A DNA stretch of 64,000 nt from Ktedonobacteraceae bacterium. GTDB lineage: Bacteria; Chloroflexota; Ktedonobacteria; Ktedonobacterales; Ktedonobacteraceae. Under the pieces are notes generated by a model, which ran no database searches, was not told where the DNA came from, and saw only the letters and a list, made by a program, of their open reading frames with translations. The position numbers and the translations under genes are program-made. The stretch covers positions 187,736 to 251,735 of the forward strand of contig DASRBN010000037.1 of the NCBI GenBank assembly GCA_035653615.1, given 5' to 3'. This document shows, in pieces, positions 2,719-23,622 of this stretch (its first letter is position 1; the number at the start of each line of letters is the position of its first letter).

Positions 2719-3492
2719 CTAGCTCACCATGTCTTCGGTGAACCAGATCCAACCGTTCGGGTCCACGTAGACACCGATGCCGATGCGGTGCAGCGTCGTG
2801 CTGAAGAGGTGGATGCGGTGCCAGCCATCCGGGGGTTCGTGGGCCATGCTTTCCTGTACGGAGTAGACTCCCGCCCAGGGAGTCGGGTATGGCCCGGCCT
2901 CGCCGATGTTCTCGCCGCAGTCATTCAGGCCGGCGAAGCCCTCATTGGCGATGCGCTGGTACTGCGTCATACCATCGGGACAGGTGTGGCTGAAGCCGCA
3001 GTGATACATGTTCCAGCTGTGCAGCAACGCGCCGGATGCCAGGGTGTTATTCCAGGCGAACGGGGGCAGGCCACAGGCGGCACGATCACTATTGATCAAT
3101 TGGAAGAGCTGCCAGGTGAGTTGCTGCGCTTCACTGGAGGTAGGCGCGGGACCGTAGGGAGCGTCCAGTGAGCCATTCGCCGGCGGCACGTGCGTGGTAT
3201 CGTTGCTGTAGGTGATGCAGTTCGATGGCGGTGGTGGAGTAGGCCCGCCCGGTGTAACAGTAGGGTGAGGAGTATTTATAGTGGGCTGTACATGCGGCGT
3301 GGGAGCCGTCTTCTGACTGGGGATGGAGAACTGGGGCGGTGTTGGTGTAGGCAAAGACTGCACACCGGTCTGGCTGATCGAATAACTGGTGAAATTGCTC
3401 GACGACGAGGATTGATAGACGACCTGAGATCCGCATGCCGCCAGCAATACCATCAACGCGAGGCATAATAGACTCCACCAGATTTTCTTCAC
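2719..3492 (-). CDS. CAP/SCP-domain lipoprotein
   Basis: GTG start at 3492. A lipobox (LLAAC, about residue 20) is followed by a long Pro/Thr/Ser-rich linker (about residues 40-110). The C-terminal 130 residues form a CAP (SCP/PR-1) domain: LINSDRAACGLPPFAWN, HSWNMYHCGFSH, a GENIG motif, and the terminal strands ending in WIWFTEDMV. The two histidines and the Glu of GENIG match the usual CAP cavity residues. The family is extracellular; bacterial members are poorly characterised and often occur in sporulating or filamentous Gram-positives. It faces the lipoprotein gene ending at 2708. Function beyond the fold is not inferable. Confidence 0.85.
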   Translation of the reverse strand: MKKIWWSLLCLALMVLLAACGSQVVYQSSSSSNFTSYSISQTGVQSLPTPTPPQFSIPSQKTAPTPHVQPTINTPHPTVTPGGPTPPPPSNCITYSNDTTHVPPANGSLDAPYGPAPTSSEAQQLTWQLFQLINSDRAACGLPPFAWNNTLASGALLHSWNMYHCGFSHTCPDGMTQYQRIANEGFAGLNDCGENIGEAGPYPTPWAGVYSVQESMAHEPPDGWHRIHLFSTTLHRIGIGVYVDPNGWIWFTEDMVS

Positions 3493-9723: not shown

Positions 9724-9984
9724 ACGATTACGCCATACGTTATTACCAACTGGACGATTTATGACCAGGGAATAACAGCCGCACCGGATGGCTCATTCTG
9801 GTTTACTGAGAACGGAGCTAATAGAATTGGCCATATGACCGATGGAATTATTCGGGAATTTATTCTCCCTACACCATTGAGCTACCCGATCACTATTGTT
9901 GCCGCGGTAGATGGTTCGGCGTGGTTTACTGAGTGCAGCGAAGAATCTCTCACCCACTTATGGGGAATCACCCTTGACTTTTAA
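9724..9984 (+). pseudogene. Fragment of a virginiamycin B lyase (Vgb)-like beta-propeller gene
   Basis: An open frame without a good start codon encodes two consecutive blades of the Vgb/streptogramin-lyase type: ITAAPDGSFWFTENGANRIG and, later, VAAVDGSAWFTE. Such blades normally occur six or seven times. After the second blade the sequence runs into CAGCGAAGAATCTC, a piece of dispersed repeat family B, and stops at 9984. Upstream the frame is closed by a stop at 9721. I read this as a decayed remnant cut at a repeat. Confidence 0.65.
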
Positions 9985-10123
9985 CAAGCGAGCGGTTATA
10001 CTTATTTACGTAGCTCGCTTGCTTCATTGCGCTGCCCCTGCTACAGCAAAAAACTCCGCTCCGTCGACCTTCGTATGTTTTATCCGTCCGCTCCATTTCC
10101 CCACCCAGGAGGTTAGTCCCCCG

Positions 10124-10651
10124 ATGAAAGATCTTAACGATCTCAATCCACCCGATTTCACTGCTCCCAACTTCTCCGTGCCCGATCTCAGCATGACCGA
10201 TCTGGCCATGCCGGATTTCAGTGTGCCGGACGTACGACGCCCCGATCCTTCACTGCCGGACCTCACCATGCCCCTGGTCCCGCGAGACCTTGATCGGCCC
10301 GCCGTCGATGAACCCGACCCGGCCTCACCCGATTTGACCATGCCGGATATTCCAGGCGCCCTCGACACCATTCCCGGTGGACTCGTTTTACCCAACGTTG
10401 ACAGCCATCATGCGCCGGGCGCGTACCCGCCTGCCATGCCGCCACGTTCGGAGGTGATCATGGACGAACGACCGGGAGAGCTTGCCGGCCCGGCGCTCGC
10501 GACCCTGCTACATAGTCCAGATATGCAGCAATTACCGCCGGACCTCACTCCTGAATCGCTCTATACGCGTGCGCAGGACATGACCTCGCGACTCAGGCGG
10601 CTGGGCAGGTTGGAACTGGGCCTGGAAGATGAAGAGAGGAAACAGCTATGA
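10124..10651 (+). CDS. Proline/aspartate repeat protein at the head of the phage-like cluster
   Basis: The frame is open from 9911, but the ATG at 10124 follows an AGGAGG ribosome site and is the likely start (175 residues). Residues 8-70 are a degenerate repeat of about five residues with the pattern P-D-(F/L)-(S/T)-(M/V) (for example VPDLSMTDLAMPDFSVPD). The C-terminal 60 residues are helical and charged. The stop overlaps the next start by 4 nt, so it is translationally coupled to the capsid gene. I do not recognise a family. Position next to the prohead protease suggests a virion or portal-associated tail piece, but this is only context. Confidence 0.6.
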   Translation: MKDLNDLNPPDFTAPNFSVPDLSMTDLAMPDFSVPDVRRPDPSLPDLTMPLVPRDLDRPAVDEPDPASPDLTMPDIPGALDTIPGGLVLPNVDSHHAPGAYPPAMPPRSEVIMDERPGELAGPALATLLHSPDMQQLPPDLTPESLYTRAQDMTSRLRRLGRLELGLEDEERKQL

Positions 10652-12750
10652 ATGGCCTGGCCGTTTCTCCCGAACCTTCTGTACAGGCTATTCGCGTGGA
10701 AGGCCACATCTGCGAAGGGCAGCAATTCGACCAGGGGAACAAGCGTCGCGATGTGCGCGTGACCATCATTCGAGGCGGTGCCAGCATCAATGGCTATTAC
10801 TACAATGAGGATGCCCTGCGCGCGATTGCCAATCTGGTGGAAGACGCCCAGGCCTACGTCGATCATGCCGGTGCCGGTACTGATAGCCAGGTGCGTTCGG
10901 TACGTGACATGGTCGGTTTTTACACCTCCCCGGTCTACATCCCTCCCGATGGCTCTGCGCGGCATGGCCGCGTCGATGCGACGCTCCACATTTTAGAGTC
11001 CGCCGACTGGTTGTGGAGCATGGTACGCGAGGCCTGTTCGTTGGGGCATCCCGAACTTATCGGCCTCTCGATTGACATCTACGGTACCTGGCAGTTTCGT
11101 AACGGCCAGCAGGAGGCAGGCATCTCTGCCTCCTCAAAGCTGGCAGCACAGCCGTTGAAAGAGGTCACGCGCGTGCTGTCTCTCAATTCCTGCGATATTG
11201 TGACCCGCCCCAGCGCTGGAGGGGCTTTCCAGCACATATTACAGAGTATAACTACACCGTCTACCTCACAACCTGTTACCTCTGAAGGAGCCATTCTCAT
11301 GAACGAACTACAGGACATCACTGCTACTGTAGCACCAGACAACGCGATAGGCACACAGAATACAGACCGCTCTATCGCATCCTCAACCGGCGTGCAGCCG
11401 GATACCTCCTCGTCCAATTCCATCGAACACACACAAGCCGTCGATTCCGGTGTCGCGGAACACGTTCTGGAGCAACAGTCTCGTTCCTTGCTCGAAGAAC
11501 TCCGCCTGGAGCGCGCGCAACTGGCACTGGAAAGGCGCCTTCTTGAATCCATCCTTCCCGAGCCGGTCAAAGCGCAGATTCGCTCGCGCTACGCGGGCCG
11601 CATCTTTGAGATGGCCGAATTGGAGCGCGACCTGTCGCTGAATCGCCAGATGATTGCCGAGCTTGCCGCATCAGGCCTGATTCGCGGCCACAATTACGAA
11701 AAGCCTGAAATTGGCAGCCAGATAACCGAGGCCGAAAAGATTCAGGCCGCTTTTGACCGCATGTTTGACCTGGATATCGACCCGAAATTTGGTAATATCC
11801 GCCCATTCGCCAGCATTCGCGAAGCCTATGCGCGTGTGACCGGCGATGCCAGCATCGCCTGCTTCAGCGACCGCTCGCAGCTCGGCCAGATTCAGATATC
11901 TGAGAGCGCCCCCATCATGCGCATCTCAGAAGCCGACACCACCACCGCCTCATTCTCCTACCTGCTCGGCACCTCCATGAACAAGCGCCTGCTCAAAGAT
12001 TACCAGGCCTGGCCCGCCGAATGGCAGCGATTCGTCACTATTACACCGATCAAGGACTTCAAGCAGCAGACCCGCGTGCGGCTGGGTGCCTTCGGTTCGC
12101 TTTCGACCGTTGCCGAAGATACGCCCTATACCACCATCTCACTGACCGACTCCGCCGCCACCTACGTCCCCACCAAACGTGGCAACCTGGTGACGGTCTC
12201 GCGCGAGGCCATTATCAACGATGACCTGTTCGCCATCAAGCAGATTCCCACGAAGCTGGCGGTAGCGGCGGCCTACACGCTGGCAGAATTTGTATATGCT
12301 TTCCTCTCGGCCAACCCGACCATCTATGATGGCAGCGCCCTTTTCACCTCCGGCGCTCCCCATAACAATCTGGGTTCCTCAGCGCTTTCGACCTCTGCCA
12401 TGCAGTCCGGCGTCACGGCCATGCGCGAGCAGACGAACTTCGCCGGCAAGCGCCTGGGATTGCGCCCCAGTTTCCTGATCGTCCCTCCCGAACTGGAATG
12501 GACGGCCATGGTTGCCACCAAATCGGCAGGCGTTCCGGGCAGCAACAACAACGACATCAACCCCATGATGGGCTATGTCACCCCTATCATCAGCCCGCAG
12601 CTTACGAACACCTCGCAATGGTTCTTCGCCGCCGACCCCCGTGTAGTCGACACCATCGAAATCGGTTTTGTGGGCGGCCAGGTCAACCCCGCGCTCTTCG
12701 TGCAAGATATGCCCCTCTATGGGCTGAATTTCACGCAGGACGTCATCTCT
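10648..12750 (+). CDS. Prohead protease / major capsid protein fusion, exon 1
   Basis: Residues 15-200 resemble a phage prohead protease (GGASINGYYYNEDALR, AYVDHAG, GLSIDIYG; then LSLNSCDIVTRPSAGG). About 265-335 is a charged coiled coil, probably the scaffold. About 370-701 is a Mu gpT-like major capsid domain (NLVTVSREAIINDDLFAIKQ, SALFTSGAPHNNLG, then RPSFLIVPPELE). The fused protease-scaffold-capsid layout is known in some tailed phages. The frame would stop at a TAA at 12751-12753, but that stop lies in a group I intron. Splicing adds 21 codons from exon 2, giving 722 residues. Start ATG at 10648 overlaps the upstream stop by 4 nt. Confidence 0.85.
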
Positions 12751-12989
12751 TAACGTCAGGAGCTTCGGAGAGTAATCTCCGTCGAAGAACCGCTCTGAAT
12801 TCGGTGAAAGCCCCAACTGAAATAAGTGGGTGACGCCGGGCCAAGGCAGCTCATCAAGAGCTATCCGGGTGTAACGACTAAGCGAGCGGCCCCTCGCAAG
12901 AGGGTGATGCCATAGTCTGACCTCTACAGGAATGTAGAGAGGTCCGCAGAAATGACGGACCCCACTCGCAAGAGTGAGTAACAACAGTG
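12751..12989 (+). ncRNA. Group I self-splicing intron in the capsid gene
   Basis: 239 nt without an ORF. The core helices can be paired by eye. P1: exon CTCT with GGAG (12759-12762), splice-site U opposite G. P2: hairpin 12763-12787. P3: CCGCTC 12790-12795 with GAGCGG 12884-12889. P4: CGGTG 12802-12806 with CGCCG 12834-12838. P6: AGCTC/GAGCT hairpin. P7: GACTA 12876-12880 with TAGTC 12913-12917. P8: CCCTC-GCAA-GAGGG 12891-12904. P9: hairpin at 12920-12943, then a CACTC-GCAA-GAGTG hairpin. The last base is G (12989). Exon joining keeps the frame, between codons 701 and 702. Confidence 0.88.
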
Positions 12990-13055
12990 TACAAAGTGCG
13001 GCACGAATATGGCGGGGCGGTCGTAGATTTCCGCGGCCTCTACCGGGGCATCTAG
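12990..13055 (+). CDS. Major capsid protein, exon 2 (C-terminal 21 codons)
   Basis: Directly after the intron's terminal G the sequence reads YKVRHEYGGAVVDFRGLYRG and stops with TAG at 13053. This tail matches what one expects at the end of Mu-like major head proteins (a K-R-H-x-F/Y-G ... D-x-R-G-L/A-Y pattern), which exon 1 lacks. The next gene starts 12 nt later, with a GAGGTGG ribosome site inside that gap, so the operon spacing also supports this as the true 3' end. Confidence 0.82.
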   Translation, partial: YKVRHEYGGAVVDFRGLYRGI

Positions 13056-13067
13056 TAGAGGTGGAAT

Positions 13068-13919
13068 ATGACCGGTTACATAGGCAACGACGGCTCGGCA
13101 CTGGCCGGGGGACTCAATCCCTCCGGCCAGGTGCAGGGGCTATCCGTTGATACTACGGGCAAGCTCAACGTCAATGCGTCGGTATCCAGCGGGCCGACGA
13201 ACATCACACAGATCAATGGTTCTCCGGTGGGCCGCACAAATGGCCTGCCGGTGAGCGGCGATAATGGTTCCTCCGTCGTGGTTTTGCCGCTTGAGGCCTT
13301 GAATAATCTGCTCAAGGCCAGCCTGTATGGCAAAGTCACCAACCCCGGCGATACGCCCATTTTGCTCGACTCGTCGGGTCGCTTGCAGACGGCGAACTAT
13401 ATCAATGGGCAGGCCGTGGGCGTCGCAACCCCTTATCCAAGCGCCGACCAGTCCCGCTACGCCGCCGTGCAGGACAAGGCTTTTATCGCCAACTATGGCC
13501 GCCTGTCGGTCGCAACCCAGACTACCAGCGGCTATCCACTGTCGATCTTCAACCCCGCCGCCAGCGGTAAAGATATCGTCATCTACAGCATACGTGTGGA
13601 GTTGAACGGTGCCGCCGGAGAATTTCGCCTGGCACTGACAACCTCAGACCCGGCCTATCCCAACGCGGCAACATTGATCAATCTGAAAGCAGGCAGCGCC
13701 ACCACCAGCGTTGCCAGTGTCACCTATGATACTGCCGTTCACGTGATGCCCACCACCTACCTGGACGACGCGCAGATTCAGAACAACACGCCATTTGAGT
13801 TCATCCCCGCCGGCTCGGGGATCTACCTGCCAAAGGGATCCGCTAATGGCCTCACGGTCTGGAGCGCGCCAGGCGGCAGTGGCACATCTATCGTAGCCCT
13901 GCGCTACTTTGAGTATTAA
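13068..13919 (+). CDS. Phage-like structural protein, unknown
   Basis: 283 residues, ATG at 13068 with GAGGTGG just upstream. The N-terminal 90 residues are Gly/Ser/Asn-rich and repetitive; the C-terminal half is beta-rich with GKDIVIYSIRVELNGAAGEF and ends in SIVALRYFEY. No signal peptide or membrane segment. Composition and place directly after the capsid gene fit a head decoration or fibre-type virion protein; no family could be named. Confidence 0.6.
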   Translation: MTGYIGNDGSALAGGLNPSGQVQGLSVDTTGKLNVNASVSSGPTNITQINGSPVGRTNGLPVSGDNGSSVVVLPLEALNNLLKASLYGKVTNPGDTPILLDSSGRLQTANYINGQAVGVATPYPSADQSRYAAVQDKAFIANYGRLSVATQTTSGYPLSIFNPAASGKDIVIYSIRVELNGAAGEFRLALTTSDPAYPNAATLINLKAGSATTSVASVTYDTAVHVMPTTYLDDAQIQNNTPFEFIPAGSGIYLPKGSANGLTVWSAPGGSGTSIVALRYFEY

Positions 13920-13948
13920 CGTTTGCGACAACAGAAAGGAAAAAAGAC

Positions 13949-14239
13949 ATGTTAGACCTCGCGGAACTTACATGGGGCCGCTATAACTCCGGGCAGATTG
14001 CCCCCGCGGGCAGCTACCTCAACCTTCGCACGCTCTGCATTTTTCAGCAGGCATCCGATGGCACCATGCCTGCTGATGGCACCTTCTTCCGTGTTGACCC
14101 ATCCGGCACGCAGACCTTTGCCAATATCGCCACCACCGTCAACAGCGTGCTTGGCACCAGCTATACCGCCGCCAGCTTCCATGCCTGCGCGGGTGGCGAT
14201 AATGAGACTTCGCCCGGGCAGGCCAGCGACGACGCGTAG
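13949..14239 (+). CDS. Small phage-cluster protein, unknown
   Basis: 96 residues, ATG at 13949 preceded by GAAAGGAAAA. Soluble, with no recognised motif. It starts 29 nt after the previous stop and ends 23 nt before the next start, so it is part of the same operon. It contains only two cysteines and a Gly/Ala/Thr-rich C-terminus. Codon use resembles its neighbours. Confidence 0.5.
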   Translation: MLDLAELTWGRYNSGQIAPAGSYLNLRTLCIFQQASDGTMPADGTFFRVDPSGTQTFANIATTVNSVLGTSYTAASFHACAGGDNETSPGQASDDA

Positions 14240-14262
14240 TCGATAGGGAACAGGAGCTTCTC

Positions 14263-14856
14263 GTGATCATCAAACGTGGCATCATCCAGGCGTTCTCCGC
14301 CAGTACCTATACCGCCTCGGTACTGCTGTTCGAAGCGACCTCCACATTCCTCACCGGCGTTCCCATATCCAATGCCATCGATGGCACCTCCGGGCTGGCC
14401 GGTGCGCTATGCGCTGTCCTCTTCTTCGACGAACAGAATCCGCAGGACGCTGTGGTGATTGCCACGTTTCCTAATGGCGGTTCTGGCCTGCCATCACCGT
14501 CGCCCGGCAGAGTCGTATTCGTCCCTGGCTACCGCCAGATCAACGCCGCTGTTATTGCCGCCAATACAACCCAGACCTTTACGCTGACAGGCGGCAGCAG
14601 CGGCATCCCATCCGGCGCCCTCGGTGTCATCTACAAAGCCTACTTCACCAGCCCCACCGTTGGTGCATCCATTCAATTGCTGCCACACGGGGCATCCGAT
14701 CACAATGCCTATGCCGCGATTGGCAATATCCAGGTAGCCAATCAATATGCCAATGGCGGCGGACTGCTGCAGGTCGATACCAACGGCCAGATCGACATCA
14801 CCGCGAACCAGGGAGCCGCCACCGTTACCTTATACACGCATGGTTATGTGATGTGA
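14263..14856 (+). CDS. Phage-like virion or tail protein, unknown
   Basis: GTG start at 14263 with AGGAGC 8 nt upstream; 197 residues. The first 90 residues begin KRGIIQAFSASTYTASVLLF and alternate polar and hydrophobic residues like an OB-fold, as in baseplate hub or spike proteins. The second half is a Gly/Ala/Thr-rich beta segment ending in TLYTHGYVM. Assignment rests on composition and position only. Confidence 0.5.
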   Translation: MIIKRGIIQAFSASTYTASVLLFEATSTFLTGVPISNAIDGTSGLAGALCAVLFFDEQNPQDAVVIATFPNGGSGLPSPSPGRVVFVPGYRQINAAVIAANTTQTFTLTGGSSGIPSGALGVIYKAYFTSPTVGASIQLLPHGASDHNAYAAIGNIQVANQYANGGGLLQVDTNGQIDITANQGAATVTLYTHGYVM

Positions 14857-14863
14857 CCAGTTT

Positions 14864-15064
14864 GGCCGATGATGAATTTTTACCAGCAAAATCGGTAAGC
14901 ACCCCTCAGGGCATGTCATTCTGAGTGAAACGAAGAATCCGTGTCCAGCGCGCCGGAGCTTCTTCCCCGTTCGCTCCGCTCAGGGCTTCGGCTTCTCTCG
15001 CTCAGCATGACACGAGCGGGGCGGCTCGGATGACCGTTTTGGTTGGTTAAATCCATCATCGGCC
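14864..15064. mobile_element. MITE-like element with ~33-bp terminal inverted repeats
   Basis: The gap between two phage-cluster genes is bounded by imperfect inverted repeats. Left: GGCCGATGATGAATTT at 14864-14879, continuing TTACCAGCAAAATCGGT. Right, as the complement of 15032-15064: GGCCGATGATGGATTT, continuing AACCAACCAAAACGGT. Inside lies a family B repeat (14909-14940, ATTCTGAGTGAAACGAAGAATC) and a related inverted partner (CTCGCTCAGCATGACA). There is no ORF and no clear target-site duplication. It looks like a non-autonomous insertion of about 200 bp. Confidence 0.55.
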
Positions 15065-15121
15065 CCATAGTCCTGCTCATTCGTCAAAAATCAATACACT
15101 TCATCCAGGGAGCATACCACA

Positions 15122-16294
15122 ATGCTGCTTTCCGACATCGAAACCGCCGTTCGCCAGGACCTCTTCGACCCCGCAGGCGGCCCGAACCAGCGCTGGCAGA
15201 ACTCCGACATCGACCGCGCCATCGATAAGGCCGTCGACCGTTACAGCCAGTACTACCCCAATATTGCCTTCGCCGATTTGCATACGCAGCCTTTTCAGCG
15301 CACCTATCCCTATCCCCAGTCCTGGAACTCCTCGTATCCCGTCTGGTGGATCGAGCGCATCCTGTATCCCTTGCAGGTCTATGGCAGCTACTTCGCGCCC
15401 CCACCTGCCGGTATGACCGCTTCCGCCGTCGCCGGTAGCGGGCTGGGTATTGGCAGCTACTCCTACACCGTCACCTTTCTTTCGCAGGGCGGCGAAACCA
15501 CTCCCTCGCCGCTCGCCAGCGTCACCACCACTAGCGGCAATCAGCAGGTCAATCTCGCCTCCATTCCTCTGGGTCCTGCCAACACCTCCACGCCCGGCGT
15601 CGCCACCAATATCGTCATTGGCCGCAACCTCTATCGCTCCCTCGCCGGCGGCCTCGTCCTCTACCTGCTCGCGACACTACCCGATAACACCACTACCACC
15701 TATACCGATGCCGCGCCCGATAGTGCTCTTGCAGACAAACCCTCGCCGCCTGCCGTCAATACCAGCGGCGTTATGCTCTGGCCGCCATTCGAGCGTGATT
15801 TTGCTGAATACTCCAACATCTTCGACAGCACCGCCGCGCTCGCTGCCGGCGGCAATCTCGGCGCGCAGGGCAACATCGGTAGTGGCAGCAGCCCGGAGAG
15901 TTCCATTGCCCCCAGCTTTACCCTCAAGCTCTCCTCCGCTGAACTCCCACAGGATGCCACTTCCGTCATTCGCGTCTTCTATGCCACCAAACACCAGCTC
16001 GATGCCAGCGGCTCGACCATCCCCGAAGTCCACCGCGACATCATCGTTCTCGGCGCCTCCGCCTATGCTATGGAAGCCTACCAGGTTCCCACCAACGACA
16101 ACTTCGATTTCCAGGATGGCGCATTGCGTGACCGTGTCGATGATACCCAGATTCCAACGGCCTGGCTCACCGCCGCTCAATCCAAAATGCAGCAATTCGA
16201 AGCTCGCCTGCAAGAGATCAAGAACCAGCGCGACTTCACAGTCAGCAGTCGCGTACACTGGGGAGATATTGCCGCCCGTTATGAACGCCTCTAA
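15122..16294 (+). CDS. Phage head-tail adaptor-like protein with inserted beta domain
   Basis: 390 residues, ATG at 15122 after CAGGGAGC. The N-terminus (LLSDIETAVRQDLFDPAGG ... WQNSDIDRAIDKAVDRYSQY) is helical and resembles phage adaptor/connector proteins that start with a 'helix, W-x-D-xx-I-xx-A-I' pattern. About residues 85-215 form a Thr/Ser-rich fibronectin-like insert (GSYSYTVTFLSQGGETTPSP). The C-terminus is helical again (PEVHRDIIVLGASAYAMEAYQ; then AAQSKMQQFEARLQEIKNQ). The outer helical parts would bind the head-tail ring, and the insert would be surface-exposed. Moderately sure of the phage link, less of the exact role. Confidence 0.6.
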   Translation: MLLSDIETAVRQDLFDPAGGPNQRWQNSDIDRAIDKAVDRYSQYYPNIAFADLHTQPFQRTYPYPQSWNSSYPVWWIERILYPLQVYGSYFAPPPAGMTASAVAGSGLGIGSYSYTVTFLSQGGETTPSPLASVTTTSGNQQVNLASIPLGPANTSTPGVATNIVIGRNLYRSLAGGLVLYLLATLPDNTTTTYTDAAPDSALADKPSPPAVNTSGVMLWPPFERDFAEYSNIFDSTAALAAGGNLGAQGNIGSGSSPESSIAPSFTLKLSSAELPQDATSVIRVFYATKHQLDASGSTIPEVHRDIIVLGASAYAMEAYQVPTNDNFDFQDGALRDRVDDTQIPTAWLTAAQSKMQQFEARLQEIKNQRDFTVSSRVHWGDIAARYERL

Positions 16295-16304
16295 TCGCTC
16301 GTCC

Positions 16305-16329
16305 CGTAGGGGCCAGGTTGATCGCGCCC
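16305..16329 (+). repeat. Dispersed repeat family A, partial copy
   Basis: A 25-bp copy of the 5' half (GTAGGGGCC, an AG insertion, then GTTGATCGCGCCC) lies between the adaptor-like gene and the next small gene, just upstream of its ribosome site. Confidence 0.55.
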
Positions 16330-16350
16330 CAGTCGTACAAAGGAGCACCC

Positions 16351-16713
16351 ATGCTGAATTTCATCTCCATCTTAAACCTCTGCGTCACCTTTGGACTGAC
16401 CGCGGGTGGCATCGTCGCGTTCCGCCATGGTTTCAACCGCGCCGCCAACGAGATTCAAGACCGTGTTATCAAAGCCTTGCAGAGCGAAATCGGTTCGCTG
16501 CAAGATCGCATCGTCGCCCTGGAAAAAGAGAACACCCGCTTGAGCCATGTTATCATGACCATTCGCGCGGCCTTGAAGCGGCGCGGACTGCACATCACCA
16601 TTGATGGCGACCTCGTCAGCATCCATGACCGCTCCGGCAACCTGACGCAGACATCGCGTATTCGCGGCAGCCAGCCTCCCTCTGGCGGCGATGATCCCGA
16701 TATGGAGGCCTGA
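16351..16713 (+). CDS. Small membrane protein with coiled coil (phage cluster)
   Basis: 120 residues from ATG 16351, chosen over an upstream in-frame start because AAGGAGC lies 8 nt before it. One hydrophobic N-terminal segment (residues 3-26) is followed by a coiled coil (about 35-75, IQDRVIKALQSEIGSLQDRI) and a polar tail. The topology resembles small phage lysis accessory or spanin-like proteins, but nothing more specific can be claimed. The stop overlaps no gene; the next start is 4 nt downstream, so translation is probably coupled. Confidence 0.55.
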   Translation: MLNFISILNLCVTFGLTAGGIVAFRHGFNRAANEIQDRVIKALQSEIGSLQDRIVALEKENTRLSHVIMTIRAALKRRGLHITIDGDLVSIHDRSGNLTQTSRIRGSQPPSGGDDPDMEA

Positions 16714-16717
16714 AACC

Positions 16718-17158
16718 ATGCCCACCATTGGTCAGGACTGTGAAATCATCCTCGACGGCACCGGCTACTTCATCAAACCCGGCACCTACAAGATGAAGCA
16801 GCCGCGCGTGCGTAAAGCCACCGTGCGCGCCGACGGGGGCGAATCCTACGTCGATCTGGGACCCGGCAAGCGCGTCTGGAGCATGATCATCCTTTGCTTG
16901 AACGACCTGGTCAAGTACGACGGCACCCCAACCGGCATTTCTGGGCAGCAATATCGTGATGCCCTGCGTTCCAGCTATCTCAACTCCACCGGCACCATTC
17001 TCCAATTCACCGATCCCCTCAATAGTACTGCCATCGCAACCCACTTCGATAGTTACGCCGAACAGGTCTACGATCTGCATATCCAGCAAGTCTCCCTCTC
17101 CACCGGCGGCGCGCCCGCGCTCTCCTACGAGGTAGCAATAGAGCTGGTCGAGGCGTAG
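16718..17158 (+). CDS. Phage tail-like protein, unknown
   Basis: 146 residues from ATG 16718; an upstream ATG at 16691 would overlap the previous gene by 23 nt and lacks a ribosome site. Begins MPTIGQDCEIILDGTGYFIK and is beta-rich, with a soluble globular look and the end segment ALSYEVAIELVEA. This pattern is common in minor tail and tail-tube proteins. It is the last gene of the phage-like operon: a 200-bp gap and membrane proteins of other character follow. Confidence 0.5.
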   Translation: MPTIGQDCEIILDGTGYFIKPGTYKMKQPRVRKATVRADGGESYVDLGPGKRVWSMIILCLNDLVKYDGTPTGISGQQYRDALRSSYLNSTGTILQFTDPLNSTAIATHFDSYAEQVYDLHIQQVSLSTGGAPALSYEVAIELVEA

Positions 17159-23510: not shown

Positions 23511-23622
23511 GCTCTCATCAAGAGAGGTGGAGGGAAACGGCCCGATGAAGCCCGGCAACCCGCCTGCCTGGTCGCAGGAAGGGTGCCAATTCCGGCGGAA
23601 CGCAATCCGCGAGATGAGGGGC
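23511..23622 (+). promoter_or_regulatory. SAM-I (S-box) riboswitch
   Basis: P1 pairs CTCTCATC (23512-23519) with GATGAGGG (23613-23620). The core elements are in order: AGAGAGGTGGAGGGA, CGGCCCGATGAAGCCCGGCAACC, a variable P3 arm, GGTGCCAATTCC, then the P4 hairpin GCGGAACGCAATCCGC. The 3' strand of P1 (ATGAGGGG) can instead pair with ACCCCTGCAT of the terminator, giving the classic switch: SAM bound means P1 forms, the terminator forms and metK is off. Confidence 0.92.

Follow-up and report, generated by a model that had tools for sequence, protein, structure and literature searches.

A compact group I intron divides a phage-type capsid gene of a Ktedonobacteraceae bacterium and belongs to a multi-site family with seemingly recombined modules

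A capsid gene in the stretch of DNA analysed here (64,000 nucleotides (nt) from a Ktedonobacteraceae bacterium; 'the window') raises the question of where its protein ends, because the open reading frame (ORF; 10648–12753) closes at an in-frame TAA at 12751. Its product is a fusion of a head-maturation protease and a major capsid protein (PF25209 Phage_capsid_4 at 1.6e-39; PHROGs 4523 and 133); an earlier reading made from the sequence alone (the sequence-only reading) had called it a Mu-like major capsid protein, and of this the capsid part holds, whereas the protein is a protease fusion that matches the Mu gpT domain weakly (5.9e-6). We collected capsid-gene loci from viral contigs (30) and bacterial genomes (24). 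Among the roughly 53 loci that reach the C terminus, about 50 run unbroken as ...VIS-YK.RHEYGGAVVDYRGLYRGI or a close variant of it; no homologue ends at VIS, the position of the TAA. Joining 10648–12750 to 12990–13055 regains the tail YKVRHEYGGAVVDFRGLYRGI, with a predicted exon junction of ...GUCAUCUCU followed by UACAAAGUG and a joined protein of 701 + 21 = 722 residues. The uninterrupted homologues thus place the ends of an intron at 12751 and 12989, and the element that had been proposed here (239 nt, plus strand, phase 0) proves right to the base. The accompanying claim that splicing replaces the stop with a tail agrees with the same tail in about 50 homologues, although the 20-letter version then given lacked the final I. 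Because every intact homologue bears the tail, the unspliced product is probably non-functional. An AlphaFold model of an uninterrupted capsid protein (41-sequence alignment) had a mean pLDDT of 45.8, too low for judging where the tail sits in the fold.

The interrupting element has the architecture of a group I ribozyme (Table 1). Positions 12741–12939 match the Rfam model RF00028 over its full length (1–253) at 53.0 bits (E 1.3e-10 for the window), just 3 bits above the gathering score of 50, and a covariance-model search found no second match elsewhere in the 6.59-Mb genome. Free folding recovered P1, P2, P3, P4, P5, P6, P8, P9, P9.1 and P9.2 (z = −3.2 against shuffles); the P3–P8 and P4–P6 domains are present, and P7 (GACUA/UAGUC) closes the P3/P7 pseudoknot. 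P10, the pairing of the guide with the 3′ exon, amounts to about two pairs at most. The ribozyme helices take up the 239 nt, in which no homing endonuclease ORF was found, as the sequence-only reading had it. The classical group I introns of phages, subgroup IA, have P7.1 (and P7.2) between P7 and P3; these elements are missing from the window intron, in which the P7 and P3 strands are just three bases (AGC) apart.

Covariation points the same way. In an alignment of nine compact introns (A2), a 55-pair model was satisfied in 97.8% of cells, a percentage favoured by the drawing of the model from the window sequence. Both sides had changed in 32 of the 55 pairs, compared with 17.0 ± 2.3 in shuffles, and the covariation score was 0.571, whereas shuffled alignments gave 0.208 and slid structures no more than 0.086; P5 was the weakest helix. 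Free folding, the P7 pairing and covariation in relatives all agree with the P1–P9 pairings first proposed in the sequence-only reading. Neither of two outcomes that would have spoken against that reading, a missing covariance-model hit or homologues ending at the TAA, was observed. Taken together, these data establish 12751–12989 as a real, correctly placed and well-supported group I intron interrupting the capsid gene, with splicing and self-catalysis predicted.

Table 1 Parts of the split capsid gene and its intron (positions in the window)
Feature	Position	Strand	Evidence or remark
Exon 1, protease/major-capsid gene	10648..12750	+	701 codons, ends ...TQDVIS; ORF, PF25209, PHROG 4523/133, homologues
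Group I intron, no endonuclease gene	12751..12989	+	RF00028; homologue boundaries; covariation
Exon 2, YKVRHEYGGAVVDFRGLYRGI plus TAG stop	12990..13055	+	Same 21-residue tail in ~50 homologues
P1 exon side CUCU, its final U opposite G (U.G at 5′ splice site)	12747..12750	+	Sequence; rule kept in 11/11 introns
P1 internal guide GGAG	12759..12762	+	Sequence; guides vary with exon in relatives
P2 hairpin, GUAA loop	12766..12781	+	Both-side changes in 5/6 pairs
P3 5′ strand CCGCUC, pairs with 12884–12889	12790..12795	+	Pairing without exception; one compensatory pair
P4 5′ strand, pairs with 12834–12839	12801..12806	+	Both-side changes in three pairs
P5 hairpin	12812..12830	+	Weakest helix, 83% of cells paired
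P6 (12840–12842 with 12868–12870) and P6a	12840..12870	+	Both-side changes in 2/3 pairs
P7 5′ strand GACUA, guanosine-binding helix, pairs with 12913–12917	12876..12880	+	Both-side changes in 3/5 pairs
P3 3′ strand GAGCGG	12884..12889	+	Covariation alignment
P8 hairpin	12891..12904	+	Covariation alignment
P7 3′ strand UAGUC	12913..12917	+	Covariation alignment
P9 hairpin	12922..12939	+	Both-side changes in 6/7 pairs
P9.1 hairpin, CAGAAAUGA loop	12941..12961	+	Both-side changes in 5/6 pairs
P9.2 hairpin	12963..12976	+	Both-side changes in 5/5 pairs
Terminal G of intron (omega G)	12989	+	G ends all eleven introns

The window intron is of an already known kind, as phage capsid genes with group I introns have been documented before. 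The mycobacteriophages LittleE and BAKA carry introns, most likely of group I, in a capsid and a minor-tail gene, respectively, with splicing shown by RT–PCR; a 156-bp 5′ block is common to both introns, which differ elsewhere (PMC3706429). By their published description, they lie, like the window intron, in virion structural genes, have U before the 5′ splice site and end in G, and the BAKA intron (265 bp) also has no endonuclease; by contrast, both come from actinobacterial phages, and that of LittleE is longer, at about 820 bp, and includes an endonuclease. The capsid gene of the lactococcal phage Tuc2009, which infects a host of another phylum, is also described as having a group I intron (cited in PMC3706429). 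Many small endonuclease-free group I introns are reported in genes of Bastillevirinae (PMC11878797) and Jug phages (PMC12363816), which differ from the present case in genes and hosts; the excerpts of these two papers that we consulted describe the phage IA2 subgroup as heterogeneous and contain no description of module exchange of the kind presented below. A literature search turned up no publication about such introns in Ktedonobacter.

Three further introns interrupt the same capsid gene, all above the Rfam cut-off. The intron of Ktedonosporobacter rubrisoli (L040), 297 nt long, occupies the very site of the window intron (site A); the viral contig L004 has one of 296 nt four codons downstream (site B, between YKVR and HEYGG) and the viral contig L009 has one of 262 nt upstream, inside QDQP-LFGLNF (site C, after the first base of the leucine codon). 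Capsid-gene introns therefore occur in 2 of the 24 Ktedonobacteria genomes that have the gene and in two viral contigs, which speaks against the rarity in Chloroflexota that had been supposed. The idea that the introns hide in invariant sites was dropped, with conservation percentiles of 0.52, 0.80 and 0.57 for sites A, B and C.

Scanning viral contigs for two patterns, the P2 block and the P7–P3–P8 block, brought seven more compact introns to light (L095, L100, L096, L105, L106, L110 and L109). The Rfam cut-off was passed by L105 and L110; the other five were called introns from shared structure, guide and restored frame. From translations read by eye, we take the L095 and L100 exons to belong to a tail-type gene (intron between SGTTI and NA), that of L096 to have a C-terminal site (between MSL and APFNR), and those of L110 (between MSL and NNFIPQLW) and L106 (between MSLNNFIP and QLW) to represent two sites in what looks like a P22-like coat gene. 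Six further pattern matches (L085, L087, L098, L101, L104 and L107) were dropped as showing no clear intron, and L108 is a possible intron with its 3′ end not located. A BLAST search of the window intron against phages returned one 23-nt match only, and among 400 Chloroflexota genomes the exact P2 motif occurs in this genome and K. rubrisoli only. The family varies both in presence and in position, as mobile (homing) introns do: about 50 homologues of the capsid gene are empty, that gene has introns at three sites, and further introns lie in unrelated genes. Two other observations came from these surveys: positions 3472–3990 of L100 appear to hold two group I introns of different core types, separated by about ten codons of a single phage gene, and in five other Ktedonobacteria genomes (L089–L093) group I matches (intron about 1501–1704, ORF upstream) just precede an apparent 3′ half of a tRNA with a CAT anticodon (CATAACCCGGAGGTC...) and are probably tRNA-Met introns.

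The guides fit their sites. Each of the eleven introns has a guide that pairs with the final four bases of its 5′ exon, closing in U.G, and each ends in G; for the window intron, the U at the 5′ splice site and the final G had already been noted. The guide changes along with the 5′ exon (exon/guide: CUCU/GGAG in the window and L040; CCGU/GCGG in L004; CCAU/GUGG in L009, L095 and L100; GCCU/GGGC in L096 and L109; CCCU/GGGG in L105 and L110; UCCU/GGGA in L106). For the four capsid-gene introns the boundaries are fixed independently by uninterrupted homologues, whereas for the seven others, whose splice sites were partly picked by the guide and G rules, the agreement is a consistency check.

Kinship among the introns does not track the gene in which they sit, because the window intron is closer to L110 in another gene (78% identity) than to L009 in the same gene (74%). 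Since a MAFFT alignment of both intron kinds misaligns the cores, we divided the introns into P2, P3–P8 and P9–3′ modules and compared them module by module. Between the compact introns and those of K. rubrisoli and L004, P2 (z of 9–12) and P9–3′ (z of 9–20) are clearly related, whereas the cores gave z of −1.0 to 1.4 in five of six pairs and 2.6 for L009 and L004. At site A, the window and K. rubrisoli introns thus have guide, P2 and P9–3′ in common around P3–P8 cores with no detectable sequence relationship. Other combinations also occur: L117 and L112 combine the large core and the same 3′ module with a different P2, L084 and L094 have the same P2 with a different 3′ end, and L116 has the core alone in common. 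The core of L094 shows weak to moderate similarity to both kinds, and intermediate core forms may exist. About half of the large-core intron of L004 aligns at 70–74% identity with introns of phiKZ-like and other Pseudomonas, Serratia and Escherichia phages; BLAST against phages gave no such match for the compact core of the window intron. The module sharing is comparable to the 5′ block common to LittleE and BAKA. Recombination of blocks among phage introns is a simpler reading of these sequences than unusually conserved peripheral blocks.

Whether such an exchange took place at site A itself is a separate matter. We rate it somewhat more likely than not that the window and K. rubrisoli introns are two different introns separately inserted there: both cores have closer relatives at other sites (L009 and L110 for the window; L004 and L117 for K. 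rubrisoli), and, with P2 and P9 modules common to many introns, the shared periphery need not be of local origin. Set against this are the identical exon target, guide (GGAG) and phase of the two introns and their homologous P2 and P9–3′ modules. We put forward only tentatively a single insertion with later core exchange, in which the guide/P2 and P9-to-3′-end blocks would travel with at least two cores of no detectable sequence relationship, and the core at this one capsid site would have been swapped in place with guide and periphery kept, making the catalytic core the exchangeable part.

No endonuclease gene lies within any of the eleven introns, which leaves three routes by which the family would have spread: reverse splicing, a trans-acting endonuclease and an endonuclease that has since been lost. 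We regard it as an even call whether new sites were reached through an endonuclease, in trans or lost, instead of through reverse splicing. Free-standing endonucleases are numerous in phages, and transposition through endonucleases of relaxed specificity has been proposed (PMC3706429, PMC3984707); by eye, L099 also has the P2 motif ahead of an endonuclease-like ORF. Against this, besides the endonuclease-free introns themselves, none was recognised near the window intron. For reverse splicing, support in the literature is circumstantial, the best being related introns at different rDNA sites (PMC3984707).

Group I introns splice by two transesterifications, with a guanosine bound at P7. In the capsid transcript, the guide GGAG would pair with the exon CUCU, the P7-bound guanosine would attack after the U at 12750 and the freed exon would then attack after G12989, joining the exons in frame such that the conserved tail takes the place of the TAA. 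The genomic setting bears on whether this still happens. The phage-type genes common to related genomes span about 9.9–17.2 kb of the window (9911–17158) with host genes on both sides (outside them, a SAM riboswitch at 23512–23620, 77.4 bits, immediately precedes a gene for S-adenosylmethionine synthetase, its expected position). Of 47 Ktedonobacteria genomes, 24 have a capsid homologue and 25 a portal homologue, mostly as a single copy and nearly all in one family; the portal homologue of this genome is on contig 15 (L131, 9499–10902), apart from the capsid contig. Neither terminase family PF03354 nor PF03237 was found in this genome, and PF03237 is also absent from the single-contig genomes G035 and G038. 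The capsid/portal element is possibly a remnant, a satellite or a domesticated (gene-transfer-agent-like) particle, and as the cluster is short, phage-type and without a recognised terminase, expression of the capsid gene is uncertain. It is nevertheless very unlikely that the intron no longer splices and that a decaying prophage remnant yields a truncated 701-residue protein or nothing: this short cluster between host genes, with its portal gene on another contig and two terminase families absent, and the apparently frameshifted homologues in Ktedonobacter racemifer and Dictyobacter kobayashii (L049, L055), which look like decay in some lineages, would fit such a loss, but both exons are open, the tail is intact and the window intron has kept all its helices, compensatory changes included.

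We conclude that a compact, endonuclease-free group I ribozyme very probably splits this capsid gene 21 codons before its end and splices in frame, as a member of a family that spans several sites and whose modules have seemingly recombined. For annotation, the TAA ends the capsid ORF early, and standard gene prediction would overlook the intron as well as the final exon. All these introns are small and lend themselves to tests in vitro. The main interest lies in the apparent exchange of cores and the multi-site distribution: genes for phage proteins repeat the pattern seen in rDNA, with relatives at nearby sites and in unrelated capsid genes, guides fitted to their sites and interchangeable cores.
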